DNA from: Capillidium heterosporum
Taxonomy: Eukaryota > Entomophthoromycota > Entomophthoromycetes > Entomophthorales > Capillidiaceae
Reading direction: 5' to 3'
DNA: 64,000 nt
Assembly: GCA_016630905.1 (NCBI GenBank)
Contig: WBMQ01000003.1
Span: 1,178,001 to 1,242,000 of the forward strand
In this document: positions 30,607-52,716 of the stretch, in pieces
Numbering within the stretch: position 1 is the first letter of the stretch
Layout of the letters: each line of letters opens with the position of its first letter
Program-made: the position numbers and the translations under genes
The notes under the pieces: generated by a model
The model's input: only the letters and a program-made list of their open reading frames with translations
What the model was told of the DNA's origin: nothing
Databases searched by the model: none

Positions 30607-31886
30607 TTGATGGTAAATATTGGATTTGAAATGAAAAGTTGATGGGTAGCTGTAAGTGTTTACAGTTCTACTTCAGTTAGAAAGGACTCGATTTAAAAAG
30701 TAAAATGAAGTTTAATTTAACTTTAGCTATTAAATATCTCAAACCAATTCATTGAGTTTATTCTATAAATCCAATTGTACAACTGTATTTATTGTTCTGA
30801 GATGTGCTCTTTAATGACTATATTGAAACGATTGATGAAGTATCATTAAGTAACTTATATATTTGTCAAAGCTATATAAACTGTCGTTTACAACACCTAA
30901 ATCAGAGTGGTAGGAAAACTTCATCCAAAGAGTTCAAATTTTTGAAAGCAAAGCTCAGTTTGAACTAAGTATTCAGAAGAGACTGCTCAGTTACAAGTAA
31001 TCAGCACTCACAACCGAATCGGAAAGTAGGTGGATGTCAGATATATTCACAGGATATTAACTTCGGAGGACCCGATGAAAAAATGAAAGATACTGGTTTA
31101 TGGTCCTCAGCTTCACAGGTATAAATCATCTTTAGGGTCACCAGCTTTGTATTTTACCTTACTAGCCTTCTAAATTCATCTGAAGCATTAGTACAGCAAA
31201 TCCATCCCAGCTTATTATTGCAGTCTCTGTAAATATTTATATATTCTATATAACTAGTGACTTTAAGCAATACAGAGCTTATTACTACGATAAGGTGGAT
31301 AAAGCTGGATTCATCGTGATACCGATGGCAACAAAATATGTACTATGCGGCAAACCAATACTATGTATAGTGCCATCTACTAAAATTGAATTAGTAGGCT
31401 ATATAAAAAGCAGTAATGTCATCGGATCAACTCAGTCACATTGGCTTTAGTCTGCTAACGTTTCAAGGTACCTTCTGACAATACCTGTTTTGTTGCTGAA
31501 TCGTAAATTTACAATCTAGACTAAATTTATACGACCTGAAAGGATGAAAAGAATTGTATAGTGTCAAAAGACGCATTCAAATTTGAATATTCATAGATGT
31601 GTATCAAAGAGTTTAGACGAACATACATACATGTGAGCAAAAGGTGTTGTCATCCTTAAGCCTCGTCTTCGTTGCAAATACTAAATTGGATATATACACG
31701 TTATATATGAATATAAAACCGACATTTGTTAAAAGGTCACGCTAGTCGAACAACACATACATGTTTGTCATCACAGAAAATCCGATACAAAAGTGGGTGG
31801 TGATACTTTCGACTACGAATATAGATAAATGTTAGTGAGCCGTATGACAGGATATGTAGCTGCGATGAACGCAACAAACTATCTGT
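30607..31886. other. Intergenic, 1.3 kb
   Basis: AT-rich, no gene recognised. It ends where the left arm of the inverted duplication begins. Confidence 0.45.
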
Positions 31887-31975
31887 TTTTAGAAGAAAAT
31901 ACCTATATAGAGACGATACAGATTAATCTCTATATACACATATATGGACATCGACCCATTCAAACTGACAATCTC

Positions 31976-31985
31976 ATATAAAGGC
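31976..31985 (+). promoter_or_regulatory. TATA-like box of subtilisin copy A
   Basis: CATATAAAGG lies about 40 bp before the ATG and is conserved in the inverted copy at about 43498-43507, together with ~130 bp of upstream sequence. Confidence 0.5.
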
Positions 31986-32019
31986 TTTGAGGTTTGTGTA
32001 ACAGCCTCACAAGCAAAGG

Positions 32020-33209
32020 ATGAAGTTCTCAAGTTTAGCACTCCTGGTCAGCACCTGTACTCAGTACCACCGTCAACAACCTAGTCAGTCCCAAGTCTAC
32101 CAAAGGTCGTTTCGTCGAAGACAGCTACCTCATCAAGCTCAAATCGGAAACCCGTTCCACCATCGATGCCCACTTGGACCAGGTCAAATCCTTATTTGTC
32201 GAACGTTCCGACGCCAACACCATCAAGCACATCTACCGTAACTTAGGAAACAACCTCTACGCTGCCAAATTCAGTCCTAAAGTCTTGGATCAAGTCAAAA
32301 AGCTACCTGAAGTCGAGTATGTCGAAAAAGAGGGTATAATTGGCGTTGAAGCCTTACAACGCGACGCACCTTGGGGTATCAGCCGTGTATCTAGACGTGC
32401 CCCCCATACCAACTTCAACGACTGGAGCTTGAAGTTCAATTACACCTACGAGACTACTGGTGAAGGCATTGCTATCTACGTCATCGATACCGGTATTCGA
32501 TTTAACAACACTCAGTTCGAGGGACGTGCCGTACATGGCGCCAATTTTGTCGTCAACAACACGAGTATTGACGACGAATACGGACATGGTACTCATGTAG
32601 CTGGTATCATCGGTTCCAAGCAGTTCGGTATCCTCAAGAAAGCCACACTAGTTTCCGTCAAAGTTATCGGGCCCAAAGGTGAAGGTGGCTACTCTGAGTT
32701 CATTGCTGGTTTAGATTGGGTCCTCAAAGATAAGCGGGGTCCCGTCGGCAATGTCATCAATATTTCGTTAGGAGGTGACAAGAGTCAAGTTTTGAACGAC
32801 GCTATCGAGGTCGCTTACTTGAAGGGTGCCATCATGGTAGTTGCAGCTGGTAACGATAATACGGATGCCTGCAACAAATCACCGGCTGGTTCCCCCAGCG
32901 CTATAACGGTAGGTGCTACCGATATCGTCGACTGGAAGGCTAGCTTCTCTTGCTTCGGTCCTTGTGTCGATGTCTTTGCCCCTGGACAGGATATTATATC
33001 GACTTTCAAGGATAAGGACTGGTACCAAGTCGGGGACTTCGATGGCGGCGCCCCATGTCGCTGGACTTGCTGGATACTTCTTGGCTTTGGAGCCTAGTCT
33101 TACTGCTGCTCAGATTGTTAAGAAGATTCAGGATACTGCTACTAAGAATGTGGTTATTGAGCCAGGGAAGGGTTCCCCCAATCTGCTAGCTTACAACTTC
33201 AATATCTAA
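32020..33209 (+). pseudogene. Proteinase-K-type subtilisin, copy A, interrupted
   Basis: Nearly the same gene as the intact copy B at 42279-43469, but the frame is broken twice. One extra C lies at about 32054-32055 within the signal-peptide region, and a one-base loss at about 33016-33020 precedes the catalytic Ser motif. Between them the reading (about 32174-33018) keeps the inhibitor-I9 propeptide part, the catalytic Asp motif (VIDTGIRF) and the catalytic His motif (GHGTHVAGIIGS). The Ser motif GTSMAAPHVAG follows in another frame up to the stop at 33209. No intron fits the two breaks. This is either a recently inactivated secreted S8A peptidase or the result of two assembly indels inside a near-identical repeat. 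Described only, not restored. Confidence 0.8.
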
Positions 33210-33649
33210 GTTGAACGAGCTCTGGACTTTTGAAAATAATAAGTATATTCATATATAGTTTATCTCTTATAAATTAGCTTTTAAGGTTTATATTAGGCTT
33301 GTGGTATTACCATGAATGAAAATTCAAATTCATCAAATTTAAACTAATACAATATCACTTTGTAATAATATATAATGGGTTTAGTACTAAAATGGATATG
33401 TATAATTTAACTGTATTGATTCTAAAGATAAAACAATTATCTAGATCTCAGCAATATAAAATAGTATTCGAAACTTTAAATTACTATAGCTATAGTTTTC
33501 ATCGAGCAGTTGGGGTTAATACTGATGTATAAAATAATGTAGTTTTATACCAGAAATGGCCGAGCTTCAAAAGTGCTGGAGGTACGTCTACAAAGTGGAG
33601 CATAGAATTCTAAAGGAACATGCCAACGGCAAAAACTTTGGTATTCGAA
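33210..33649. other. Diverged spacer within the left arm
   Basis: AT-rich, without a gene. Traces of similarity to 41963-42060 (a TAGAATTCTA block) show that the original duplication continued through here. Confidence 0.4.
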
Positions 33650-33836
33650 TAATATACTTGCAGAAACATCAAGTATATATGAAAATCACTGTGGGAATTG
33701 AAATTGAGACTTGGGGATTAAGTGTGGCTTTACTATCAAACTAGCAGAGCATGGAATTCGAGAAGAAAAGTATAGATGTATACTCCAATGGATATATTGA
33801 GATTATTTCATAGCTGCATTCTGAGACTATGGGAGG

Positions 33837-33846
33837 TATATAAAAG
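33837..33846 (+). promoter_or_regulatory. TATA-like box of small secreted protein gene 1
   Basis: TATATAAAAG stands 83 bp before the ATG at 33929. It is kept at matching positions in the other family members (for example 35129-35138, 37334-37341, 39873-39880, 41766-41775). Confidence 0.55.
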
Positions 33847-33928
33847 ACGGAAACTAAGTTGGAAATAGTATCAAAACAACCACCTAATCTAATACACCAA
33901 CAAGTAAAGCCATAATACCCTAATAACA

Positions 33929-34375
33929 ATGAAGTTCATCGCCTACATTACTTTATTCATCGCTACTGTCTTTGCTGCTGGTGAAGATAATGTAGCTCCC
34001 AACTCAGCCCCAGCCCCAGCTCCTGAAGCCCAACCCAACCCAGCCGCACAGCCAGCGCAACCTATTCAAGCTGTTCAGCCAGCTCAACCCATCCAAGAAA
34101 CTAAGGAGACCAAAGAGAACAAAGAAGGATGGTTTAATCCTCAATGGGGCAACCAGTGGAATCCTCAGTGGAGCAGCGGTGTACAAACCGGTGCTTTGAA
34201 TGGCACTCCATGCTGGCAGAACCCTAACCAGTGCGATGCCAATCCCATCAACTACTACGAGTGCGTCAATTCTAAATTGCTGTCCAGACCCTGCGCCCCT
34301 GGAACCTACTGTACTAGGCTAAATGGTCAAGCCAGATGTGACGGCCGTATCCCTACCCAAATTCGCAACTGGTAA
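33929..34375 (+). CDS. Small secreted six-Cys protein 1, CBM19-like
   Basis: 148 residues, single exon. A signal peptide (MKFIAYITLFIATVFAAG) is followed by a Pro/Ala/Gln-rich linker of repeated QPAQPIQ units (about residues 24-58), a Lys/Glu stretch and a Trp-rich patch (GWFNPQWGNQWN). The C-terminal module has six cysteines (C95, C102, C112, C122, C128, C137) in the pattern C-x6-C-x9-C-V-N-x-K-x5-PCAPGT-x-C-x8-CD. The ECVNSKLLSRPCAPGTYC part resembles the family 19 carbohydrate-binding module that binds chitin; this is my judgement and is unverified. The module could hold three disulphides. It follows the broken subtilisin by 720 bp on the same strand and mirrors gene 6 at 41222-41683. Confidence 0.85.
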   Translation: MKFIAYITLFIATVFAAGEDNVAPNSAPAPAPEAQPNPAAQPAQPIQAVQPAQPIQETKETKENKEGWFNPQWGNQWNPQWSSGVQTGALNGTPCWQNPNQCDANPINYYECVNSKLLSRPCAPGTYCTRLNGQARCDGRIPTQIRNW

Positions 34376-35213
34376 CTCAAGCAATAAATAATACCTAATT
34401 TATAGTTAACTATGATATCTTTAAAGCACTAATTTGCTACTATATCAAAGAATTTATTTTTGCTAAAAATTTCAAAAAAATATTTATTTAAATGGATCAG
34501 TTCGTTAAAATTTTGGATGTAGAGCATACCTTCCTTTTATAATACAATGTAGGGTAGTATCTATGTAGCATATATAAATTTTACATAGATGCTGCTATTA
34601 AAGGTAGTTCAAAAGTTTAGCTTTACTGTTTACAGCTACAAGCACTATACTTGTATAAGCTTGAGTAATAGATTTACTACAATAGGCCATGTACAATATA
34701 GCCACATCAAATGATTTTATCGGATAATTTAGTATTATAAATTAAAGTAGATATTCGATATCTATATTCCCTTGACATCAACCCTTAGCCCATAAGATCT
34801 AGGTATTGGAGCATTAAAGGTGTAGGTTTGGAACACCTTTTAGGACGCTGATCAATTTCGAGTATGGTATATAAGTAAATGTCTTAAAGCTATATATATA
34901 GTCATACTAAAACGGTATGTAGGTTTAATTGAGTCCTAACTTTAAACACCCTTTGTTCCCATATTTTTAGAAAAATTGGAGGCAATTTACGAAATTTAAA
35001 ATGGGGAGAAAATTAGTAAATATAACTCAACGGTAAACTGCCATATTTTGAAGGTGGGTATATGAAAGGCTACTCCAATAAATATATTCGATTGTGGCAC
35101 ATAATTTCACTTTTTAAATAAAGAAAGGCATATAAAACGCAATAGTTAAACTACAAATTGCTATCAAAGCAAAAAATTAACCTAATAAATAAAGCCATAA
35201 TACCCTAATAGCA
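34376..35213. other. Intergenic, 0.84 kb
   Basis: AT-rich spacer between small secreted protein genes 1 and 2. It contains the TATA-like CATATAAAAC (35129-35138) of gene 2 and no other gene. Confidence 0.5.
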
Positions 35214-35600
35214 ATGAAATTCATCACTTGCATCATATTGTTCATTACCACCATCTTGGCCGCCGGTGAAGACAACACAATCCCCAAATCAGCTGAAATT
35301 CAAGCTAGCCCAGCTTCAAAGGTCCAGTCCATGCAAGCTGCTGAACCAATTCAACCTGTCCAAGAGAGCGAAGAAGGTTTTTGGGACGATCACTGGAATC
35401 CATTTTGGAACCAGCCTAGAGGTGTATGGAGCACTGCGCCCTGCATACCAAGCCAAAACTACTGTGACCCCAACCTCACTGGTCGCTACGTGTGCATCGA
35501 TTCCAAGCTGGCGCTATTACCCTGTTCCGCTGGAACCCACTGTACCACGAATAGTGGCCAATCCAACTGTGATGGCAAGGGACCCTACTCCTATACATAG
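35214..35600 (+). CDS. Small secreted six-Cys protein 2, CBM19-like
   Basis: 128 residues, single exon. Signal peptide MKFITCIILFITTILAAG, then a short Ala/Ser/Gln linker, an acidic/Trp patch (EEGFWDDHWNPFWNQ) and a six-Cys module containing YVCIDSKLALLPCSAGTHC and a final NCDG. The linker is shorter than in protein 1 and lacks the QPAQPIQ repeats. The C-terminus ends GPYSYT instead of the family's usual IPxxIxxW, so it is the most diverged member. It is the last gene on the plus strand before the centre of symmetry; the next four members are on the minus strand. Confidence 0.83.
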   Translation: MKFITCIILFITTILAAGEDNTIPKSAEIQASPASKVQSMQAAEPIQPVQESEEGFWDDHWNPFWNQPRGVWSTAPCIPSQNYCDPNLTGRYVCIDSKLALLPCSAGTHCTTNSGQSNCDGKGPYSYT

Positions 35601-36833
35601 CCAGTAACCCAACACAATAAATCTTTGCTGTAACTAAACCTATGTAAAATGTAGCTTGTTTTAGGTTTTACAACCTTATTTTTGAAATTTACCAGCTTCT
35701 TCTTATATCATTTTGCCTAATATAAGTGGCAGGTCTTCCAATGTGATAATCATAACTGATTTGAACTTATTTTATAGTTTTTAAGGGTAATTGGCGCTAA
35801 ATTTTGAACATATTGTAAATACTTTATGAAGTCAATTCAAAACTTCAGATATAAGTTTGGATTTGATACATATAGAACTCAACTGCATCTACAATTGAAT
35901 TCAAACTTATAGAAAGGATATGTGTTAAAGATATCTATGTGTATATCAGCTTTTTATGGGAGGATAGTTTAAACTTAGCAGATGGAGTTTGGCGCTCATG
36001 AAATGAACTTCAACTTCATTGGAAAGTTCGTATGCTTTTCGAGAGTATTGGCTCCTACACTAGTATTCTAAAGAATTAATTGCAATACAGCTATACTAAA
36101 TTTACAAAATTGAACCTTGGTAAAAGCTTGGTAGCCATCAAATTTTCAGGGACATAGAACTGAAAGGTATTTGAAGTCAAAGCTTGATTCAACTAGCATG
36201 TCATTCTAAAATGAATGATAAATGGCTTTCTACGATATATGTTGTCAAAATGCTCCAAGTTGATGAGAATCATAGGTTGAAATAGTTGTAAGGACTTGTT
36301 TAAAAGTGATTTGTGTACTAGCTGTCTAGTCTAAAGTATTGGATCATACAGGTCTCATAATAAGCTATACATTCCAATTAAAGGTATACGTGCGGCGGTA
36401 CTTGTAGGTGTGCAATTCCAAACCAAAGCTTTGAAATGTGTTTAGTCACAACATATATATGAGATGTATACATGTTATATATTTTCATATATTTTATATT
36501 TAAAAAATTTCCTAATAGATATATCTAAACGAAATACGATGAAAAATCGGTACAGGAATGATTCGATAAAGAAATATCTTTCTATAAAAAGGGTTTTATA
36601 TAGAAAGGAAATTCTAGTTTAAATTCAATGGATCCTTTTCTTTGAAATCTTTGGCCTTTTTTTATTGAGACCTTAGGAACAAAGTTTTTGTAAAAACGAC
36701 ATGAAATACTTTATAATGTATTGGCTGTATTTGAACAAGGGGGTAAGTCAGCATGTCAGTTATCGATCCAGTATATAGAAGCAACGTAATAAAAAAAATG
36801 TATACAAAAATTAGGTATATTTATTGCATGAAG
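35601..36833. other. Intergenic, 1.2 kb, strand switch point
   Basis: Convergent spacer between gene 2 (plus) and gene 3 (minus). AT-rich; no gene, hairpin or mobile element recognised. Confidence 0.45.
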
Positions 36834-37256
36834 CTACCAGTTAGGAATAGGGACAGGGAAACGATTATCACAGATGAAGCGGCTGCCCTGCATCATACAG
36901 GTAGTTCCAGCCGGACAAGGTCTGGATAAGAGTACACCGTTGACGCATTCGAGGTAACCTGGGCCGTTGCAGAAGAATTGACCGGGCCAACACTGTGGAT
37001 TGGATGGGACACCAGCCGGTAGACCGTTGAACCAAGGTGTGTTCCACAGAGGGTTGTTGTGCTGGCTCCACCAATCTTCCTTGTTCTCTTTGCTTTCCTT
37101 GACCTCCTTAACCTCCTGCACTTCTTGTTTAGCTTGGATGGGTTGGACGGCTGGAGCTGAGTTAGCTTGAACTTCAGCTGGTTTAGAGGCTACATTATCT
37201 TCACCGATAGCCAAAGTAGCAGCGATGAATAAGGTGATACAGGTGATGAACTTCAT
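36834..37256 (-). CDS. Small secreted six-Cys protein 3, CBM19-like
   Basis: 140 residues, single exon. Signal peptide MKFITCITLFIAATLAIG, an Ala/Pro/Gln linker, a charged stretch (VQEVKEVKESKENKEDWW), a Trp/Asn patch (HNNPLWNTPW) and the six-Cys module (CWPGQFFC...YLECVNGVLLSRPC..GTTC...FICD). The family ending (RFPVPIPNW) is present. A TATA-like box reads TATATAAG on the minus strand (37334-37341). Its upstream ~150 bp (37389-37542) is shared with genes 4 and 5, showing that promoter and coding region were duplicated together. Confidence 0.85.
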   Translation of the reverse strand: MKFITCITLFIAATLAIGEDNVASKPAEVQANSAPAVQPIQAKQEVQEVKEVKESKENKEDWWSQHNNPLWNTPWFNGLPAGVPSNPQCWPGQFFCNGPGYLECVNGVLLSRPCPAGTTCMMQGSRFICDNRFPVPIPNW

Positions 37257-38104
37257 TTTTATTAGGTTAATAAATATTTACTTAGGCTATTAGGTTAGTT
37301 TGATTGATAATGTTTTAAGCTTAACCATCGCTACTTATATATCGTTCTATATTTCAAAAAGCATCTTAATGTGCTATAATCTAATATTATGTTGGAGTAA
37401 CTTACCATATATCCACCTTCGAAATGTGGGAAGCTTGCAACTAAGCTTAGTTTATCAGTTCAAGCCCCAGCTAATTTTTGATTTCCATTCACCTTTCCAA
37501 GAACGTGAAGGCAAAGGATGCTTGAAACTGGGACTCAATTAACCTTGCATACCTTTCTAAAACTTGATAAATAGAATTCTATGGCATTTATATACTTCTT
37601 TATTGAAAGTTGATCAGCATATTGGAAGGTGAATTTCCACGCTTACGTCTTTAGCACTATATTAGTTGTGTTTAATGGATTGAAGATTGATGTTAAGAAA
37701 ATGTATATTAAGAAGCCCATTTCAACTCAATAATTTTTCCTGATACTATAATAAATGGCGTTTTTAATGCAATTTATATAACTTGAATATAAAAGAGTAT
37801 GTGATATAGATCTTTGAATTTTGCTATAGTGTATAGAGTTTATTGTAGCAATTCTTCCATTCAAGTTTATATAGATACAGTACCTGTAGTGGTACGATTT
37901 GAAAGCTAATACTTTGAGTTATTTTATTCGTGGTGATGTAATTTATATATGATGTATAGATGGTACCTATAGTATATTGTTCAAGGAAACTATATTATAT
38001 ATCAAAAATTTCCAATATTGAGCTAATATAATAATCGTGCATAATAAACTAATTGCAAGAAAAAAAATTTTAAACTAAGCGTAATACATGTTTATTGTAC
38101 GAAG
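37257..38104. other. Intergenic, 0.85 kb, centre of the palindrome
   Basis: Holds the promoter of gene 3 with its shared upstream block (37389-37542). The geometric centre of the inverted cluster falls at about 37.5-37.8 kb. No gene or obvious long hairpin. Confidence 0.5.
37389..37542 (-). repeat. Upstream block shared by small-protein genes 3, 4 and 5 (copy a)
   Basis: About 150 bp starting near ATGTTGGAGTAAC and ending GGGACTCAATTAA on the plus strand. It lies 130-290 bp upstream of gene 3 and has counterparts at 38641-38798 and 39936-40080 in the same relation to genes 4 and 5. The AGCCCCAG core and the GAACGTGA block are best conserved. Confidence 0.6.
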
Positions 38105-38498
38105 TTACCAGTTACGAACTTGAACGGGGATTCTACCGTCACAGAAGGCCCGACCACTCTGCGTAGTACAGTAAGTTCCAGCAGAACAGGGTCTTGATAA
38201 TAGCTTAGAGTTGACACACTCGTAGTAGTAGTTGGCATTAAGATCGCATGGGCTTTGATTCCAAGTGCAAGGAACGTTGTTCCAAAGACCATTAGGCTGA
38301 CCGTTGTTCCAAGGTTGGTTCCATAATGGGTTCCAGTGATCCTCCCTAGAATCCTTCTGTACTTTCCTCGCTTTCTTGAATCGGTTGAGCAGCTGGAGCT
38401 GGATTGGCTTGAACTTCAGCTGGTTTAGGGGCTAAGTGAACTTCTCCAACGGCCAGGGCACTGGCAATGAATAGACTGATACAGGTGATAAATTTCAT
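38105..38498 (-). pseudogene. Small secreted six-Cys protein 4, interrupted
   Basis: It starts like its sisters (MKFITCISLFIASALAVGE, linker with NPAPAAQPIQESEE) but meets an in-frame TAG at 38348-38346, where the family has a Trp codon. After a one-base shift the reading resumes in the conserved style: HWNPLWNQPW, a module with YYECVNSKLLSRPCSAGTYC, and the ending IPVQVRNW at the stop 38107-38105. No plausible intron removes the break (the only GT..AG pair is 17 nt apart). So this is a one-base insertion, either real inactivation or an assembly error. Confidence 0.78.
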
Positions 38499-39412
38499 TA
38501 TTATTAAGTTGTTAAAATTTTGTTTGTTAGGATATTAGATTAGGTAATTGTTTTGATAGTATCTCATAGTTCAAATATCGCACATTATATATCTTTCACC
38601 ATCTCAAAAAGTGTTCAAATGTACTTTAATTTAGCATAACTGTTGGGGTAACCTCTCATGTTCTCATTCGAAATATAGCAACTAAAACTGCTATACTAAA
38701 TTTTGCTAGCTTGAGCCCCAGTTTACATTTCTAAATTGCTGCCCATCTTTTCCTAGAACATGAGAACAAAGAGCGCTAGAACCTGGGATACAATTAAATT
38801 TAAATACCGTTATAGAGTGATGCTTTATTTACTTAAATCTTACACAAAGTTTATTGAAATAGTAGGCAAAAGGGTCTAAAACGCGTTAGATGAAGGCCGC
38901 TAAAAGGATTAGTTACTAAAAGGTGGATTACCAAAACCTATCTTTAGTACTATAACAGCTACTTTTGATGGGTTGAGAATTAGCACCAAGAAATATAAAA
39001 TCTGGTATCCAATTTATGCTGAATTGTCAATTTCTACTGCTATTTACAACATGTAGCATGTCGTATACATTTTATATAACATAAGTATGCACCAACTATC
39101 TGATAAAAATTATCAAATGTGATTATATCGTACAAGATTTCAAGATTATGCATACATTTGTACTCGCACAGATTTTAAAATGCTTTTTCTAAAGACATAT
39201 ATGTGATTATCTATTATGTAAATCATGTTTACAGCATTTTTTCTGAAGGAAGCTACATTTTGTATTTGAAACTATTACTGCGTATAAGCAATCTATTTTA
39301 TTCTAAAAATGCATTTATATATCTGCTTATAAACTTGTACCAACATATAGTATAAAATCATTGTAGAAAGGATATTTTTTAAAATAAAGTTGGGTGCTTT
39401 TATTGTACAAAA
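38499..39412. other. Intergenic, 0.9 kb
   Basis: Promoter of gene 4 with its shared upstream block (38641-38798), then the 3' flank of gene 5. No other gene. Confidence 0.5.
38641..38798 (-). repeat. Upstream block shared by small-protein genes 3, 4 and 5 (copy b)
   Basis: Counterpart of 37389-37542, with TGTTGGGGTAAC at one end, GAGCCCCAGTTT inside and a CAATTAA end. Diverged by many substitutions, so the duplication is old relative to the 33.9/41.7 kb pair. Confidence 0.55.
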
Positions 39413-39790
39413 CTACCAAGGATGAATAACAGTGGGAATTCTATTGTCACAGTAGGCTTGGCCACCTCGATCAATACAGGAAGTTCCAGGAGCACAGGGT
39501 CGCAGCATCAATCTAGAGTTGACACATTCATAGTAGCTACCACTAACATCGCAAAAGGTAGGGTTCTGGATACAGGGGGCGTCTTTCAAGCCACCGGGTA
39601 CATTCCATAATGGGTTCCAATGTATGTCCCACCACCATTCCTTGCTCAGCTTGCTCTCCTGCACAGCTTGGATTGGTTGAGCCGCTGGAGCTGGACTAGC
39701 TTGGATTTCAATCGGTTTGGGAGCTACGTTCTCTTCTCCGGCGGCCAAGGTAGTGGCGATGAACAGGGCGATGCAGGTGATAAATTTCAT
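39413..39790 (-). CDS. Small secreted six-Cys protein 5, CBM19-like
   Basis: 125 residues, single exon, the shortest intact member. Signal peptide MKFITCIALFIATTLAAG, a short linker (QASPAPAAQPIQAVQESK), a Trp patch (EWWWDIHWNPLWNVPG) and the six-Cys module (CIQNPTFC...YYECVNSRLMLRPCAPGTSC...AYCDN) with the family ending IPTVIHPW. A TATA-like box lies at 39873-39880 (minus strand TATATAAG). Its position mirrors gene 2 across the cluster centre. Confidence 0.86.
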   Translation of the reverse strand: MKFITCIALFIATTLAAGEENVAPKPIEIQASPAPAAQPIQAVQESKLSKEWWWDIHWNPLWNVPGGLKDAPCIQNPTFCDVSGSYYECVNSRLMLRPCAPGTSCIDRGGQAYCDNRIPTVIHPW

Positions 39791-41221
39791 AATGATTAGG
39801 TTGCTACGATTATTTATTAGTGTATTATATTATTTAGTTGCTTTGATAATGTTTATAGTATAGATACCGTTCCTTATATACCTTTATTTATTTCAAGTGC
39901 CAAAATGTGTTGTAGTTGAACACCATGATTAAGGCAATCTTTCACATGCTCACCTTCAAAATTTAACAAGTTTGCCACTAAGTTCATTTTACTAGCTTGA
40001 ACCCCAGTTTGTATTTTTAAATTGCTGCCTATCTTTCCTAGAACGTGAGAACGAAGGATGCTTGAATATGGGATGCAATTAAATTCACGTATCGTTAGAG
40101 TGGCGGTAAATGAAGTATTGCAAATTTAAATTACATGCCGTATACGAAGTTGATCGACATTGTAAGCTAAAAAGTTTATGGTGCACTAGGAAATGATAAT
40201 TAAAGTACTAATGATCAAGACAGATTTCCGAATTTAGGTTATTAGCACTACAACTGTTGTAGAGTCCAAATCAAAAAGTAGTGTTTCGAATTATGGAGAA
40301 AGCTCAATGGATTGTTATGGTATAATTCCTTATAGAATGATTTGTTGAGAACGTAATAAAAGAATATGCTCGAATCTACTTGATTTTAACCAGGTAGGCT
40401 TTGTACTGTTTTATCACCCCATGCCTGTATACGACATGGATGTGAATGCTTATAAAAATTCTCCCATCCTATATCAACTAGGATATCAATCTTTCCACAA
40501 AGTGAAAATTTGAAAAAATCCTAAGGATGTAGTTATGATGGCTGGCATAATATTGATGCCAGTCTTGTAGCCAGTTTATTAAAGGGAACATAGTCAAACT
40601 AGACCTGGAATAGAACGGTTTTAACTTTTAATAAAAGTTTTGAAATAGTCTCTTTTTGAGTTAAGCTGAAAATATAGCTCCAAACTGCTGCCTTGGATTA
40701 CTTATATATATAGACATATTTATGGCCTATACAGCATATTTTTAAGATTCAAATAAATCTCTCTGATTACTATCAGAAAAGGGCCTTGGATTTTGTATTA
40801 AAGAGAAAGATAGGATGTGGAGGATCATAATTTTTTATTTGAATTTTATATAATGAGCTGAGAATTGATATTAAGGAGGTACATATATGGCATCTAATTT
40901 ATTTTATCAATTTCTATTTTATTTATAATCAGTAGCGTTTCAAATAAATTGTATGTAGCTTGAATATACAGCAGTTATTTGAAACTTATCGCTGGATGTG
41001 ATTATACTGTACAAGACTTATCATAATATGACTTGTACTTGAACTTTACAGGAATTAGTACTTATACAAGTATAAATTAAACTGCTTGAAAGAATATATA
41101 AGTAAGCCAATCTACTCGAAATATAAGGATCGATTTCTAAACTAGCATTGGAAAACATATTATAAACTCATAATAGGAATATGTATTTCAAAATATATTA
41201 GGTACTATTTACTATACCAAG
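39791..41221. other. Intergenic, 1.4 kb
   Basis: Promoter of gene 5 and the shared block 39936-40080, then AT-rich DNA up to the stop of gene 6. No gene recognised. Confidence 0.45.
39936..40080 (-). repeat. Upstream block shared by small-protein genes 3, 4 and 5 (copy c)
   Basis: Counterpart of 37389-37542 and 38641-38798. TGAACCCCAGTTT and CTAGAACGTGAGAACGAAGG are the best conserved parts. Confidence 0.55.
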
Positions 41222-41683
41222 TTACCAGTTATGAATCTGGGTGGGGAAACGGTTATCACAGGTGGCACGACCGTTCTGCGGAAAACAGAAGGTTCCGGCG
41301 GCACAGGGTCGTAGCATGAACATATTGTTAACACACTCGTAGTAGCCACCAGTAAATGAGTCACAACGACTCTCATTGGGTGTGCAAGGTTGGTTGCTCA
41401 AGGCGCCAATAAGCTGGCCGTTATTCCACTGGTTGCCCCATTGAGGGTTAAACCATCCTTCTTTGTTCTCTTTGGTCTCCTTAGTTTCTTGGATGGGTTG
41501 AGCTGGCTGAACAGCTTGAATAGGCTGCGCTGACTGTGCAGCTTGGATAGGTTGTGCTGGCTGTGCGGCTGGGTTGGGTTGGGCTTCAGGAGCTGGGGCT
41601 GGGGCTGAGTTGGGAGCTACATTATCTTCACCAGCAGCAAAGACAGTAGCGATGAATAAAGTAATGTAGGCGATGAACTTCAT
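41222..41683 (-). CDS. Small secreted six-Cys protein 6, CBM19-like
   Basis: 153 residues, single exon, mirror copy of gene 1. Signal peptide, linker and Trp patch (up to GWFNPQWGNQWN) are essentially identical to protein 1, apart from one extra QAAQSAQPI unit. The cysteine module differs at most positions (CTPNESRC...YYECVNNMFMLRPCAAGTFC...ATCDN) while keeping all six cysteines. The 5' flank of nearly 280 bp is also almost identical to gene 1. This mosaic suggests either strong divergence of the binding module or gene conversion confined to the 5' part. Confidence 0.87.
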   Translation of the reverse strand: MKFIAYITLFIATVFAAGEDNVAPNSAPAPAPEAQPNPAAQPAQPIQAAQSAQPIQAVQPAQPIQETKETKENKEGWFNPQWGNQWNNGQLIGALSNQPCTPNESRCDSFTGGYYECVNNMFMLRPCAAGTFCFPQNGRATCDNRFPTQIHNW

Positions 41684-41765
41684 TGTTATTAGGGTATTAT
41701 GGCTTTACTTGTTGGTGTATTAGATTAGGTGGTTGTTTTGATACTATTTCCAACTTGGTTTCCGT

Positions 41766-41775
41766 CTCTTATATA
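41766..41775 (-). promoter_or_regulatory. TATA-like box of small secreted protein gene 6
   Basis: The minus strand reads TATATAAGAG about 83 bp before the ATG, at the same place as in the mirrored gene 1. Confidence 0.5.
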
Positions 41776-42278
41776 CCTCCCATAGTCTCAGAATGCAGCT
41801 ATGAAATAATCTCAATATATCCATTGGAGTATACATCTATACTTTTCTTCTCGAATTCCATGCTCTGCTAGTTTGATAGTAAAGCCACACTTAATCCCCA
41901 AGTCTCAATTTCAATTCCCACAGTGATTTTCATATATACTTGATGTTTCTGCAAGTATATTACTTCTTGGTTAAAATATTTATTATAGTTACCTTCCAGT
42001 AGAATTCTATACTCCACTACCGTAGCTTATGTCTTTTTGATTGGAGTTCAACATCCTTTAGTATGGTACAGCGATAAATTGCCATTTAGATTGTTCAAAA
42101 TTTCATAACTAGAAGACTTTACTAAAATATCTATACTACACTAATGTATGTCTGTAAGATTTTACTGCTAGTATATGAAATTAACTTGATAAAATCACAA
42201 CTGCATCAATTTCTAGTACAATTGTTGATATAAATAGGTAAAACTAAAACCGAAATGGACATTCAAAATTTAATCAAA

Positions 42279-43469
42279 TTATTTCTCACTGTTGTTGTAG
42301 GCTAACAAAGTAGGCGAACCCTTACCAGGATCCTGTACGGCCTTCTTGTTAGCAGTATCGCGAATCTTGTCGGCTACCTGCTTGTTTGTCAAGGTAGGTT
42401 CTAAAGCTAGATAGTAACCGGCTAATCCGGCTACATGGGGAGCCGCCATGGAGGTGCCAGACAGTTCGGTATTCTTATCCTTGAAAGTGGAGATGATATT
42501 GGTACCAGGAGCGAATACATCGACACAAGGGCCGAAGCAGGAGAAATCAGAACGGTAGTCGTCGATTCCAGTAGCACCTACCGTTATGGCGTTGGGAGAG
42601 CTAGCTGGTGATCGGTTGCAGGAATCAGTTTTGTCGTTACCAGCTGATACAACTACGATGGCTCCTTTTTTGTAAGCGCCTTCGACGGCGTCATTTAGGG
42701 CTTGGTACTTCTCACCACCCAGCGAGATGTTGATAACATTACCGACGGAGCCACGTTTGTCAGCAACTGCCCAATCTAAACCGGCGATGAACTCAGAGTA
42801 GCCACCTTCACCTTTGGGCCCGATAACTTTGACGGAAACTAGTGTGGCCTTCTTGAGGATACCGAACTGCTTGGAACCGATGATACCAGCTACGTGGGTA
42901 CCGTGCCCAAACTCGTCGTCGGTACTTGTGTTATTAATAGCAAAGTTAGCGCCGTGGATGGCACGACCTTCGAATTGGGTGTTGTTGAGCCGAATACCGG
43001 TATCGATAATATAGACAGCGATATCTTCACCGGTAGTCTCGTAGGTGTAGTTGAACTTCAAACTCCATTCGTTGAAGTTGGTATGGGGTTTCTTGCGTGC
43101 TACACGGCTGATACCCCAAGGAGCATCCTTTTGTAAAATATCGACACCGATTATACCCTCTTTTTCGATGTACTCAACTTCAGGTAGCTTTTTGACTTGA
43201 TCCAAGACTTTAGGACTGAATTTGGCAGCGTAGAGGCTGTTTCCTAAGTTACGGTAGATGTGCTTGATGGTGTTGGCGTCGGAACGTTCGACAAATAAGG
43301 ATTTGACCTGGTCCAAGTGGGCATCGATGGTGGAACGGGTTTCCGATTTGAGCTTGATGAGGTAGCTGTCTTCGACGAAACGACCTTTGGTAGACTTGGG
43401 ACTGACTAGGTTGTTGACGGTGGTACTGAGTACAGTGCTGACCAGGAGTGCTAAACTTGAGAACTTCAT
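42279..43469 (-). CDS. Secreted subtilisin-like serine protease (S8A, proteinase K type), copy B
   Basis: 396 residues, single exon, intact. A signal peptide (MKFSSLALLVSTVLS) precedes an inhibitor-I9 propeptide (about residues 30-105, with DSYLIKLK and VEYIEKEGIIG). The mature domain starts near DAPWGISRV. The catalytic triad is visible: D156 (IIDTGIR), H189 (GHGTHVAG) and S340 (GTSMAAPHVAG), with the oxyanion Asn in SAGND. Cysteines around 284-315 fit the proteinase K disulphides. Such enzymes are secreted proteases used for nutrition and, in insect-associated fungi, for degrading cuticle protein; this use is inference. It flanks the small secreted protein cluster, pointing inward, and mirrors the broken copy A. 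Confidence 0.94.
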   Translation of the reverse strand: MKFSSLALLVSTVLSTTVNNLVSPKSTKGRFVEDSYLIKLKSETRSTIDAHLDQVKSLFVERSDANTIKHIYRNLGNSLYAAKFSPKVLDQVKKLPEVEYIEKEGIIGVDILQKDAPWGISRVARKKPHTNFNEWSLKFNYTYETTGEDIAVYIIDTGIRLNNTQFEGRAIHGANFAINNTSTDDEFGHGTHVAGIIGSKQFGILKKATLVSVKVIGPKGEGGYSEFIAGLDWAVADKRGSVGNVINISLGGEKYQALNDAVEGAYKKGAIVVVSAGNDKTDSCNRSPASSPNAITVGATGIDDYRSDFSCFGPCVDVFAPGTNIISTFKDKNTELSGTSMAAPHVAGLAGYYLALEPTLTNKQVADKIRDTANKKAVQDPGKGSPTLLAYNNSEK

Positions 43470-43601
43470 CCTTTGCTTGTGAGGCTGTTATACAAACCTC
43501 AAAGCCTTTATATGAGATTGCAGTTTGAATGGGTCGATGTCCATATATGTGTATATAGAGATTAATCTGTATCGTCTCTATATAGGTATTTGCTTCTAAA
43601 A

Positions 43602-44941
43602 TAGGTATTTTCGTGGCATTTACCGCAGTTCATAACTTGTCATTGAGTCTTTTAATCTAGCTATAAATGCAGTTGAAAATGTCACTTGCTAAACAGCTAT
43701 CAGATACTATGACCATAATCGTACTATATATACACAATTGAATAAGTGCGGCCTTTTTGATACTATTTATAGCCATTACTTTTTATTACATATCAGTAGG
43801 TCTTTACTTAACGGCAACATAGGATCATGCAGCAGCTAAAGTCGATTTAAATTAATTTAAGCTATATACCTTTGGCTTACACCATATCTATTAGCTACAT
43901 ATTATCTACCGTTTCACTTTCATATAAATTTCGAATATCATGACCTTGGATAACTAAGGACTAGATTTTATTTTTACTAACAAATCTTATATTTATCGAA
44001 CAAAAGCAGGTGATGTCGAAATATAGTAGTAGATTAAGAGGAACGTGATCAAAATCAAGGGTTGTCAATTTTAGAACCGAAAAGCAATAGGGAGGTTTAA
44101 ATAAGTCACTGAAGGTGCATACGTAGGCGGACAAAGGTTGGGCGTGACTAAAGCAAGGATTACCAAGCGTTGTCATTGATGGCTAGCAGTAACGCTTAAT
44201 TGCATCATGCTAAAAACACATGCCCAACTCCAAAAGTATTCTTATATGATTTTCCATAAAACTAGGTTGAACAGTCTGATGGATGGTATACCAAAGATAG
44301 CTATAGTTTGCAGTTTTACAACGCACTGCATTTTGAAAGGTCTAAAGAATTAAATCTCGACTGTTGGATGTTGGTTAGTTTATTCAAAGTTGGAGGTTGC
44401 AATCTTTTATGCCTTGCAAAGTTTATCTTGGTAAGCCTATTCAAATATTCACAAATACTTGGGAGGGCTGAAATAAAGTGGCTAGATATTTATAAAGTAA
44501 ATGAGGTAGAATTAAATCAATTACGGTGTGGCTTGATATATGGTTAAAAATATTAAAGAAAAGTGGTAATAATAGACCAAATCAAAAAAGTACGAGTTAT
44601 TTGTCAACTTTATATATAGATGGTCACTAAATATATATATTGATGCTCTTCACTACTATCTACCTATTGAAAATTTCAATTAAACAAATATGTAACTATC
44701 TTCAACATAGACGTACAAAAGTTGCAATGAAATTAAAATATACATATCTAAAAATCAACCCTTATTAAGCATATAGTGAATGCTTTACTACCATCCAAAA
44801 AAGTAGAAACTATCTATCAACAATAGCCATATGCAAAGTACACCTACCTGTAGGTAGATAAAAAAATAACTTATTATTATTGAAACTTGCCTAACATCCA
44901 TAAAAACAAATGAAGCCAACTTGAAAATTTATCTAAAACGA
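43602..44941. other. Intergenic, 1.3 kb
   Basis: Between the end of the inverted duplication and the GlyRS stop. A minus-strand open stretch at 43961-44176 has no recognisable features. Otherwise AT-rich. Confidence 0.45.
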
Positions 44942-49600: not shown

Positions 49601-49983
49601 CCTTGCAAAATTCAAAAGGATTCGTCCAGGTACCCTCAAACATAAAGTTACTTTAAAAAGGTAAAATTCTTCCAAGATTTCCACCCATTCAAAACTGATC
49701 AAGCAAAAAGCCAAATCCTACCTTTTCTTGAGATTGATTCTTACCTTTCCAGCCTTCAGCCGTCTTTCAAGAAAGAAAAGTGTCGTTCAAAGGTTTAGTA
49801 AAGCTTATACCAATCGAACCCATTCTTCTGTTCAATAGCATATTTGTATCCAGTAACTTTTAATAATTAATTTCAACTCAAGAACCGAGGTCCTTTCAAT
49901 AACAGTAAGCAAAGATTTTGATTTTGACCACTAATAGATGTTCTAGCCCACCACTCAACACAAGTTAGAATCTACTTGCCAAA
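46604..49983. other. Gene-free stretch, 3.4 kb
   Basis: No supported gene. A 76-codon plus-strand stretch at 47614-47844 begins with a hydrophobic, signal-like segment (MSAYGIFLFIALFF), but its remainder has no features. Another at 49438 has no ATG start. The last 250 bp should hold the promoter of the kinase gene. No tRNA or repeat recognised. Confidence 0.4.
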
Positions 49984-52716
49984 ATGATGGAAGAAGAGAT
50001 TCTTTACGAAAATATCAAGAAGAGTATCCTACTTGGTAAAGGTTCGTTTGGCAAAGTCTACAAGTGTAATCACAATGGTTTCACTTGTGCAATGAAGACT
50101 TTGATAGCCACCGATCGACTCCGCGAAGCACAACGTAAGAAGTATGCAGATTCGTTACGATTAGAAGCCAAGGCCATGGCTAAGCTGGGCCGCTGTGAGA
50201 ATATTGTCCAGTACATTGGTTGTTGTATCGATCCCAAGCAGCGTTTATGTGTACTCATGGAATTTGTCGCCGGTAAGAATTTGGCCAAGTTTATCGAGGA
50301 AGATTTCCCTTTACATCCCTGGTCCCTGAGGGATACCATCACTTTAGATACTGCCAAAGGTATTGCTTACATCCACTCCAAGGACATTATCCACCGTGAT
50401 CTGAAGTCCGAAAACATCCTTATCGACTTTGAGGACAACTTCAAAGCCAAGATTGCCGATTTCGGTGTGGCTAAAGTATCAGAGGAAGTTAGAGGTACCA
50501 TCGAAACTTTCTCTGGGGCCGGTTCTCCCCCGTGGATGGCACCTGAACTGTTTTTGAACTCCAGAGGTTTGCCGTCGAAAAAAACAGATATGTACTCATT
50601 CGGTATGATCATGTGGGAAATCGCCAGCGAGAAGCGCCCCTACGAAGACAAGACCAAGAATGAGATTCGCCACATGAAGGAGAAAGGCATCATTGAGCCA
50701 GTTCCTCCTACCGTACCTCCAAGCTACGAACGCCTGCTTCGTCGTTGTTTAGATTCCGAGCCTAGCAACCGCCCATACGCCCACCAGATTGCCGACATTC
50801 TGAAGCGTGACAAAAGCGTTAAAGCCAATTACGAGACCAACATTTGTTTCCAGGATCAAAATGATTTGGCCACTTTACTCGGTAACGACATTGACCGTGC
50901 CAACGCCCAACCAAACGTCAATGCTGAACGCAAGGCCAATATCGACGATTCTTTTGATAGCGACACGGATAGTGATGACGAGTACCACGGTTCCAAGCTA
51001 AATGACCTTATTGATTCTTTAAATCGAGGTGACGAAAACGTCAAGGATCAGCTTATGGAACAATACGATATCAACACCGATGACGCATCAACTTTAGAGC
51101 TGTCGCTCGGCAATTGTCATTACAACGGTGTTCGTGTCCCAGTTAACTACGATACTGCCGCCAAGCATTATGAAAAGGCTGTAGAGCTTGGTAATAAGGA
51201 GGCGATTGTTAAACTAGGAAACTGTTACAAGCTGGGCCACGGAAAGCTTATCGATCATGACAAAGCCTTCAAGCTATTTAAGCAGGCCAACGAAGCCAAC
51301 GTAGCGGGCAGTAGTGGACTTTTAGGAGAATGCTACTACATTGGGCAGGGGGTTGAGGCCAGCGTCGAGGAAGCTATCAAGTACTTTAAGCAGGGAGCCG
51401 CCGACAATGACGTTACCTCCCATTTCTACCTCGGCCGTTGCTACTACTCTGGATTAGGAGTCGACAAGGATTTCCAAAAAGCCGTCAAGCATTTCGCCAC
51501 TGCAGCACGTCAAGGTCATGCCGAAGCCCAACTTAACATCGGCATTGTTCACAAGATGGGTGTTACAAAGCCCCCAGATGATGTCGAAGCTTTCCGATGG
51601 TTCCTCAAAGCTGCTGAGCAAGGTCACCCTGTGGCCCAAAACAACGTAGGATCCTGCTACTATTTCGGTATCGGTATCGGTCAGAATTTCAATCTTGCCT
51701 TCAAATGGTTCAAGTCATCAGCCGTTAAAGGGAATGCCGGTGGTATGCACAATGTCGCCGACTGTTACTTGACTGGCAAAGGTGTTCAAGTCGACAAGGA
51801 ATCTGCTATCGAGTGGTTCACCAAGGCTTCTAACCTGAACCATGGGTTGGCTCAGAACTCCTTAGCTATGGCTTATCACAATGGGGATGGTGTGCCTAGA
51901 GATTTGGACAAAGCATTCTACTGGTATCAAAAATCCGCCGAATCCAACTGCGTACCCGGTCAAGTAAGTTTAGGTACCTGCTACCGTGATGGGGTTGGCA
52001 CGATCAGAAATCCCAACTTAGCTATGCATTGGTTCGAGATGGCCGCCGACCAGGGCTCACCAGTCGCTCAGCTCAAGCTGGGTCTTATGCACTTGGACAA
52101 AAGTAACCTCAGCGACAAACGAGATGAGGTGCAAGGATTCAGATGGTTCCATACAGCAGCCGAGGCTGGATTCACCGACGCTCAGTTCCATCTAGGAAGG
52201 TGCTACGTCATGGGATTAGGTGTCGAAAAGGACGCTAGACGCGGTTGTCAGTGTTTCATAAAAGCTGCTTCAGCCGGTCACGTCGAAGCACAGAATACAT
52301 TAGGTTCCCTATACTACGCCGGTACTGGTATCCCCGTTGACTACAATGAAGCTGTCAGTTGGTTTATGAAGGCTGCCGAGTCAGGTAACCCTGCCGCTGA
52401 ATTCAACTTGGCCGAGTGCTACAGCAAGGGTAGAGGCGTCCAGCAGTCTACAGCCCTCGCCCACGACTGGTACATGAAGTCGGCCTCCCATAACTACCCC
52501 AACGCCCAGTACATGTTAGGTACAATGTACGAGCGAGGCCAAGGTGTCGCTGTTGATTTGGAGTCAGCTCTCAGGTACTACCGCATGGCTGCCCACAAGT
52601 TACCCCAGGCCCAGCAGCGTATTACTACTATCAACAACCGTATGGCTCGACCCTTACCCACCCCTGCCCCACCACCGCCACCACCCCCGCAAAGCGACTG
52701 CTGCACCATCCTATGA
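49984..52716 (+). CDS. Protein kinase with Sel1 repeats and a C-terminal CaaX box
   Basis: 910 residues, single exon. Residues 10-275 form a complete kinase domain of TKL/receptor-interacting-like type: glycine loop GKGSFGKV (18-25), K38 (AMKTL), catalytic HRDLKSEN (137-144, D139), DFG at 159-161, and APE at 186-188 within PPWMAPELF. A linker with an acidic run (DSDTDSDDEY) leads to about thirteen Sel1-like repeats (about 355-870), each with the A-x2-LG-x-CY...G.GV..D...A..WF pattern. The C-terminus is a polyproline stretch and SDCCTIL, a CaaX box ending in Leu that predicts geranylgeranylation of C907 and membrane attachment. Sel1 repeats are scaffolds for protein complexes. Kinase plus Sel1 is known in early-diverging fungi; partner and pathway are unknown. 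Confidence 0.93.
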   Translation: MMEEEILYENIKKSILLGKGSFGKVYKCNHNGFTCAMKTLIATDRLREAQRKKYADSLRLEAKAMAKLGRCENIVQYIGCCIDPKQRLCVLMEFVAGKNLAKFIEEDFPLHPWSLRDTITLDTAKGIAYIHSKDIIHRDLKSENILIDFEDNFKAKIADFGVAKVSEEVRGTIETFSGAGSPPWMAPELFLNSRGLPSKKTDMYSFGMIMWEIASEKRPYEDKTKNEIRHMKEKGIIEPVPPTVPPSYERLLRRCLDSEPSNRPYAHQIADILKRDKSVKANYETNICFQDQNDLATLLGNDIDRANAQPNVNAERKANIDDSFDSDTDSDDEYHGSKLNDLIDSLNRGDENVKDQLMEQYDINTDDASTLELSLGNCHYNGVRVPVNYDTAAKHYEKAVELGNKEAIVKLGNCYKLGHGKLIDHDKAFKLFKQANEANVAGSSGLLGECYYIGQGVEASVEEAIKYFKQGAADNDVTSHFYLGRCYYSGLGVDKDFQKAVKHFATAARQGHAEAQLNIGIVHKMGVTKPPDDVEAFRWFLKAAEQGHPVAQNNVGSCYYFGIGIGQNFNLAFKWFKSSAVKGNAGGMHNVADCYLTGKGVQVDKESAIEWFTKASNLNHGLAQNSLAMAYHNGDGVPRDLDKAFYWYQKSAESNCVPGQVSLGTCYRDGVGTIRNPNLAMHWFEMAADQGSPVAQLKLGLMHLDKSNLSDKRDEVQGFRWFHTAAEAGFTDAQFHLGRCYVMGLGVEKDARRGCQCFIKAASAGHVEAQNTLGSLYYAGTGIPVDYNEAVSWFMKAAESGNPAAEFNLAECYSKGRGVQQSTALAHDWYMKSASHNYPNAQYMLGTMYERGQGVAVDLESALRYYRMAAHKLPQAQQRITTINNRMARPLPTPAPPPPPPPQSDCCTIL

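Follow-up and report, generated by a model that had tools for sequence, protein, structure and literature searches.

The 64,000-nucleotide stretch of Capillidium heterosporum DNA analyzed here (hereafter, the window) spans positions 1,178,001–1,242,000 of contig C23 in an assembly of 29.5 Mb and 44 contigs; C-numbers below are contig labels within this same assembly. In a block at 32.0–43.5 kb of the window, an S8 subtilisin gene on either flank faces inward, and six related small genes, S1 to S6, lie inside. Our best explanation, to which we give about even confidence, is that the block represents old inverted units of an S8A subtilisin and a small protein, that the small proteins are derived from the CBM19 domain and most likely act as secreted, chitin-binding shields or tethers, and that the 5' ends of the outer genes have been gene-converted. 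The original prediction for this locus, two inward-facing subtilisin genes that enclose six related genes (two plus-strand, four minus-strand), agreed with the open reading frame (ORF) and domain calls. Its overall layout and symmetry axis held; the left protease and S4 proved to be frame-broken, and the mirroring uneven.

Relationship of the small proteins to CBM19

The six small genes have in common a short hydrophobic leader, a linker of Pro, Ala, Gln, Glu and Lys, a Trp-rich patch and a six-Cys module, the architecture foreseen for each of them; the leaders were recognized by eye, with no signal-peptide program. The predicted secreted proteins are encoded by S1 (33929–34375, plus strand), S2 (35214–35600, plus), whose module is the most divergent, S3 (36834–37256, minus), S4 (38105–38498, minus), S5 (39413–39790, minus) and S6 (41222–41683, minus), the mirror partner of S1. 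In a Pfam scan none of the six proteins reached the cut-off of any family. Among chitin-related families, the closest scores were those of S5 with CBM_19 (PF03427; 14.0 bits against a cut-off of 20.1) and of S3 with CBM_14 (PF01607; 13.8 against 22.1 bits). The proposed profile check against CBM19 and CBM14 was thus negative for all six modules, and plain membership of either family was rejected on these scores.

The relation to CBM19 that had been suggested was nevertheless found at the level of homology. Compared with its own genome, the S3 module alone matched the C-terminal part of longer ORFs at two places on C23 (expectation value, E, 5.7e-7) and two on C32 (E 1.7e-4 to 1.9e-4), and all four places are Pfam CBM_19 matches above the cut-off, which was reached by 11 of the 17 matches in a genome-wide CBM_19 search. 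The C23 pair of ORFs are GH18 chitinases by Pfam, and the C32 pair are GH18 by the likeness of their translations to a GH18 match at C32:1244358. In a profile–profile comparison with hhalign, the six S modules aligned with eight GH18-borne modules over 44 columns with a probability of 97.5 and an E of 8.6e-12. The observed score was 56, and 198 of 200 column-shuffled controls scored 20 or less; the two exceptions, with scores of 132 and 134, aligned just 8 and 12 columns at the end of the profile, and we regard them as artefacts of gap-rich ends. When scored with the GH18-borne module profile, five of the six S modules reached 27.9–47.0 bits, S3 the highest, above all 1200 Cys-preserving shuffles (best, 18.6 bits). 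The S2 module, at 17.6 bits, did not exceed the shuffles and is related only via the family profile. Scanned one by one, 17 modules gave 12 matches to CBM_19 and 8 to CBM_14 at E up to 10. The Cys spacing of the GH18-borne modules was found in all six S modules, and also in the modules of a second small-protein family described below (one row of this comparison, L030, began after its first Cys). These comparisons of sequence indicate that the S1–S6 module descends from, or shares descent with, CBM19 without being a Pfam-grade member, and we class it as CBM19-derived, not as CBM19, because its best Pfam score lies below the cut-off.

Two Trp positions weigh against simple chitin binding. All eight GH18-borne modules have a Trp (G-K-W) five residues after Cys3, and in seven of them the last Cys is followed by Asp-Trp. 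The first of these Trp residues is present in none of the six S modules, which have Leu (five) or Phe (one) in its place, and the second is replaced by Asn or Gly in all six. What remains is the Cys-Asp at the last Cys (6/6) and a C-terminal Trp at the end of five of the six, S2 being without it. That the first Trp is lost does not settle the matter, because the CBM14 domain of human chitotriosidase (CHIT1), which binds chitin, has Leu at that place, albeit in a weak profile alignment (E 0.087). In part of a study of CHIT1, Trp465 is regarded as a key residue, and chitin binding is lost in a construct without Trp465 and Asn466 (PMC4844120); for Avr4, an excerpt lists Lys99-Trp100-Cys101-Asp102-Tyr103 among the residues touching the N-acetylglucosamine hexamer, (GlcNAc)6 (PMC6128652). 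Since the Pfam scores are below cut-off and both Trp are absent from all six modules, we infer chitin binding by S1–S6 rather than assign it.

Structure prediction, another of the checks suggested at the outset, gave a weak resemblance to known chitin-binding folds. The VIA lists for the predicted models were led by tachycitin-type domains, namely CHIT1 and Der p 23 for S3, and Der p 23, CHIT1 and EHEP for S6, and in the structure comparison of the S6 model the antifungal bubble protein and PAFC stood near the CBM14 group. Foldseek returned no match to the predicted models at E ≤0.001, and PDB sequence searches gave nothing significant. The modelled fold of S3 and S6 may thus weakly resemble the CBM14/tachycitin group. 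A lack of profile or structural similarity to any carbohydrate-binding module, named beforehand as a finding that would tell against the prediction, was looked for and did not hold.

Mosaic identity of the inverted arms

The two protease arms (31844–33197 and 42294–43643) are 83.3% identical in inverted orientation over 1358 columns, with a midpoint at ~37.74 kb, and the S1/S6 arms (33594–34162 and 41423–42018) are 91.3% identical over 599 columns, with a midpoint at ~37.8 kb, in agreement with the predicted symmetry about ~37.7 kb. Strong mirroring was confined to these outer pairs. Inverted S2 was 65.5% identical to S4 and 67.9% to S5, and S3, S4 and S5 are direct repeats of each other (68–72%).

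Within both pairs of arms the identity was mosaic. Between S1 and S6 it amounted to 97–100% over ~33.70–34.15 kb, covering the promoter, leader and linker, and to 48–71% in the Cys module and 3' flank; the near-identical tract (left copy, 33650–34155, plus strand; right copy, 41430–41962, minus strand, ends approximate) stops at the Trp patch and includes one in-frame difference in linker length. Between the proteases it was 98–100% over ~31.93–32.29 kb, a tract that covers the promoter, leader and most of the prodomain (left copy, 31897–32313, plus; right copy, 43177–43590, minus, ends approximate), then 57–88%, with an exceptional patch of 95–97% at 32.59–32.71 kb, and fell to background level past the stop codon. 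The longest near-identical runs in both arm pairs exceeded those in all 5000 shuffles, and the tract DNA was found at only two places in the genome. No repeats of at least 150 bases extending into the flanks at 28–31.8 and 43.7–48 kb were found.

Codon comparisons separated the tracts from the remainder of the genes. The protease tract had no change in 49 synonymous sites (74 codons), and the other 240 codons compared, for which S8-left was used only between its two frame breaks, had a synonymous divergence (dS) of 0.91 and a ratio of nonsynonymous to synonymous divergence (dN/dS) of 0.13. For the S1/S6 modules (57 codons), dS was saturated (2.5) and dN/dS was 0.16. The mature parts of the mirrored genes are thus old and under purifying selection. 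A recent palindromic duplication was rejected because dS outside the tracts is too high, and positive selection on the modules was rejected on the dN/dS of S1/S6 with its saturated dS. Near-identical 5' tracts beside old, diverged mature parts are the pattern expected of recent gene conversion between old inverted paralogues, and not of a mis-join or a young palindrome. Joint expression within the S1/S6 pair and within the protease pair is likely, since their promoters are all but identical.

Other inverted pairs were seen elsewhere in the genome. On C32, arms of 2.9 kb (1941943–1944835 and 1956134–1959014), ~11 kb apart and 99.4% identical, carry one small CBM19-like gene each, and the same region has a further 0.5-kb inverted arm at 99.6%. 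A 1.8-kb arm (93.6%) carries a GH18-CBM19 gene, and a 2.7-kb arm (87.7%) an S8 gene.

The flanking proteases and the frame breaks

S8-right (42279–43469, minus strand) is an intact subtilisin of 396 residues, in which the I9 prodomain (30.4 bits) and the Peptidase_S8 domain (146.6 bits) exceed their Pfam cut-offs and the DTG, GHGTH and GTSMA catalytic motifs lie in one open frame. Pieces of I9 and S8 were likewise above the cut-off in S8-left (32020–33209, plus strand), but they are split between frames, the Ser motif lying in another frame. Among the first five rows of a search of 5.8 billion proteins, the best relatives of S8-right were those of Massospora cicadina (49%), Entomophthora planchoniana (49%), E. 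muscae (47–48%) and Neoconidiobolus thromboides (48%). S8-left and S8-right are mutual nearest paralogues, with 86% identity over residues 12–334 and 72% over 335–392; the next paralogue is at 54%. By domains and relatives, both are ordinary proteinase-K-type S8A enzymes, as they had been labelled, and the relatives of the protease, which point to an entomophthoralean fungus, also bore out the placement of the fungus in an insect-associated group. As reported in a portion of PMC6169396, 130 of 152 S8A proteases of Entomophthoromycotina fall in the proteinase-K-like group A, and protein digestion by subtilisins is established for insect-pathogenic fungi. The genome gave 58 S8 matches, nine of them with internal stop codons (introns are possible); for comparison, part of PMC9026835 quotes the numbers of subtilisin-like proteases in Conidiobolus obscurus (52), C. 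coronatus (36), C. thromboides (18) and E. muscae (22).

The frame of S8-left is broken at two sites, near the gene start and near 33.02 kb, and was left unmended; in S4, one break puts the leader and module in different frames. Because five other long ORFs of the window (566, 655, 761, 797 and 915 residues) are uninterrupted, the breaks are local to the block. The three breaks are either true mutations or errors of assembly or polishing, S8-left being a pseudogene in the former case, and its protease may be dead.

Association of the small genes with subtilisins across the genome

We found 25 small CBM19-like genes without a catalytic domain, in 11 clusters; S4 is included in this count, whereas weaker matches and a pair of broken C38 genes are not. 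A cluster was called near when it lay within 10 kb of an S8 match, and binomial probabilities were computed with the 2.6% of the genome that is near S8. Three of the 11 clusters (the present locus and those on C7 and C11) were near S8 (P 0.0025). With the present locus excluded and intact genes only, this became 2 of 10 (P 0.027), and 1 of 9 (P 0.21) when the C7 and C11 near-copies, whose ORFs are identical, were taken as one. One broken gene, at C38:1767700, is separated from an S8 match by 6.4 kb. The addition of both broken C38 genes gave 3 of 10 (P 0.0019), and merging C7 with C11 then left 2 of 9 (P 0.022). When five further weak matches were also included, 3 of 14 clusters were near S8 (P 0.0053, or P 0.044 after the same merging). 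P values ranged from 0.004 to 0.47 when the cluster width and distance were varied. None of the six GH18-CBM19 clusters was near S8. Small-gene clusters may thus have a weak tendency, resting on few events, to sit near S8 genes. Most of them lie away from subtilisins, and a strict pairing rule was rejected; the strength of the tendency varies with the set of genes counted. The co-amplified module that had been proposed therefore describes the present locus but not a genome-wide rule, and the link between protease and small protein is mainly local.

The near-copies at C7:15–25 kb and C11:76–85 kb each hold two S8 genes of a different, 500-residue type, together with an ORF of 207 residues that contains a pair of CBM19-like modules. 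Seven S8 matches fall on C11 (111 kb).

Distribution of the small-protein family and other chitin binders

A search of the 5.8 billion proteins with the six small proteins yielded no match at E up to 1, although the out-of-frame N-terminus of S4 in the query alignment may have reduced its sensitivity. The S1–S6 family had no close relative in the protein database searched or elsewhere in the same genome, which is in keeping with the suggestion that it might be undescribed. A title and abstract search of the open-licence literature in PubMed Central found no paper on free-standing CBM19-like proteins of Entomophthorales.

The genome also holds a second, larger family of predicted small secreted proteins with a CTEGTMFCD-type six-Cys module (15 intact genes and two broken), at C38:1.731–1.768 Mb, C32:1.941–1.962 Mb and C2:0.655–0.659 Mb and on C43, C44, C12 and C41. 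A 15-sequence small-protein alignment retrieved two hypothetical proteins of N. thromboides, at E 5.8e-17 and 7.4e-15, which are CTEGTMFCD-like and are the only named relatives of this family found, together with two unnamed proteins at E ~7e-3. The second family resembles S1–S6 in its leader, low-complexity linker and CBM19-like six-Cys module, but many of its linkers are rich in Gly, Tyr and Asn, the members aligned have Tyr at the first-Trp place, and its intact members are never within 25 kb of an S8 match. A 358-residue Ser/Tyr-repeat protein with a terminal CBM19-like module (C44:1552082–1553155) looks like a wall or adhesin protein.

There were 28 GH18 matches in the genome, some of them parts of one gene; for C. 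obscurus, 36 GH18 and 11 CBM19 genes are given in an excerpt of PMC12387763. LysM was absent from the Pfam scan of S1–S6 and from the genome at E 0.001, and a genome search for CBM14 gave no match above the cut-off. CBM18-type matches occurred at two places: an ORF on C12 with three matches above the cut-off, and C42 with a single match below it. The genome is thus poor in LysM- and CBM18-type matches yet rich in CBM19-type modules, and the 25 small genes and the lack of a LysM match fit a use of such modules as free chitin binders of this fungus.

Upstream elements and neighbouring genes

The hexamer ATATAA stands 84–92 nucleotides upstream of the start codon in all six small genes and 44 nucleotides upstream in both proteases; it is common in the window (142 matches). 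A conserved block of ~50–70 nucleotides, a candidate regulatory element, lies upstream of S2, S3, S4 and S5 (34.91–34.97, 37.47–37.56, 38.70–38.80 and 39.99–40.08 kb, respectively) and was not seen at S1 or S6. Outside the block, the window encodes a Zn2Cys6 transcription factor with a fungal-specific domain (6536–8503), ~23.5 kb from the block, and a 915-residue protein in which a protein kinase is joined to twelve Sel1 repeat matches (49969–52716).

Discussion

We propose that an old inverted pair of units, each of an S8A subtilisin and a small secreted protein, flanks extra small paralogues. The subtilisin would digest protein and so bare the chitin of the insect cuticle, and S1–S6, as free-standing and presumably secreted relatives of the CBM19 domains of GH18 chitinases, would bind the chitin of the fungus's own wall or that of the cuticle exposed by the subtilisins, possibly in joint action with the protease. 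Without a catalytic domain, S1–S6 can only bind, and chitin is the likeliest ligand because of their CBM19 descent; they would act as a shield or tether, much as Avr4 and LysM effectors do. Gene conversion between the mirrored outer genes would exchange sequence at their promoters and leaders, the mature domains remaining distinct. The symmetry is old and has been refreshed in this way.

An origin of the mirror from a fold-back read or a mis-join, the latter having been named in advance as an outcome that would count against the symmetry, is highly improbable. The three frame breaks in the block and the 99.4% identical inverted pair on C32 would suit an artefact, but the protease arms differ by 17% overall, dS outside their tract is 0.91, the S1/S6 modules are saturated, and no long repeat runs into the flanks; a contig mis-join was rejected on this divergence and on the mosaic identity. 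More serious, though we put it somewhat short of even, is that unrelated secreted families came to lie side by side by accident and were carried together by one inverted duplication. The intact-gene counts near S8 (2/10, P 0.027, or 1/9, P 0.21), the absence of any GH18-CBM19 cluster near S8 and the inverted duplication of other genes in the genome are what such an accident would give. The counts with the two broken genes (3/10, P 0.0019, or 2/9, P 0.022) are not, and the arrangement at the locus has outlasted a dS of ~0.9.

The role of the small proteins may also differ from the one preferred here. They could be a CBM19-derived scaffold that no longer binds chitin and instead coats the wall via the linker and Trp patch, or acts as an antimicrobial or host-interaction peptide. 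We consider this possible but rather unlikely: both GH18-typical Trp are replaced in all six, bubble protein and PAFC stand near the CBM14 group for the S6 model, and purifying selection suits any conserved role, but the Leu of CHIT1 at the first-Trp place (in its weak alignment), the C-terminal Trp in five of six, read with the loss of binding by CHIT1 lacking Trp465 and Asn466 in the same portion of PMC4844120, and the Cys-Asp kept in all six argue for retained binding. Less probable still is an action on the cuticle side, in which the small proteins attach to the chitin of insect cuticle, or loosen it, and so aid subtilisins and chitinases instead of shielding the fungus. The subtilisin neighbours, the 28 GH18 matches, the insect-pathogenic relatives and the weak tendency of the clusters to lie near S8 are consistent with it; most small-gene clusters, however, are not near S8. 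Because CBM19 fused to GH18 already targets enzymes, we lean towards wall binding over a tether that holds the fungus or its enzymes to cuticle.

The ways in which early-diverging insect fungi conceal the chitin of their walls or hold on to cuticle are little known. As a tentative and rather doubtful generalization, entomophthoralean fungi, of which the present genome has no LysM match, may have built an arsenal of free-standing chitin-binding effectors from chitinase CBM19 (25 genes in several families), with inverted pairs keeping promoters and leaders in step by conversion while the ligand-facing domains drift. The mosaic identity itself is a case of a homogenized promoter and leader joined to an unhomogenized mature domain.

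Compared with known systems, the proteases resemble the group A (proteinase-K-like) S8A subtilisins of Entomophthoromycotina in their I9 prodomain, their catalytic motifs and their 47–49% identity to the best relatives, and differ in the frame-broken left copy, the group assignment being by likeness and without clustering. S1–S6 share with the CBM19 (PF03427) of fungal GH18 chitinases, several of which occur in the same genome, a homologous module, its Cys spacing and its C-terminal position, but have no catalytic domain, score below the cut-off, have two Trp replaced, and carry a preceding Pro/Ala/Gln linker and Trp patch. The likeness to the CBM14/tachycitin group, represented by Cladosporium fulvum Avr4 and human CHIT1, consists of six Cys, a small beta-rich module and a possible, weak fold match, and Avr4 is also a small secreted protein without a catalytic domain. 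S1–S6 fall under the Pfam cut-off, however, and the ligand-contacting Trp100 and Tyr103 that flank Cys101-Asp102 in Avr4 (PMC6128652) have no evident counterpart here, whereas its Cys-Asp has one. The LysM effectors Blys2 and Blys5 of Beauveria bassiana, as presented in sections of PMC5600412, resemble S1–S6 in their proposed role, that of a catalytic-free secreted chitin binder of an insect-associated fungus, and differ in having an unrelated domain with no LysM match in the present genome. Avr4 guards the fungal wall from host chitinase, according to PMC6128652, and Blys5 potentially does likewise in Beauveria (PMC5600412). If our interpretation is true, a catalytic-free, CBM19-derived family would be a counterpart of Avr4 and the LysM effectors from an unexpected domain.

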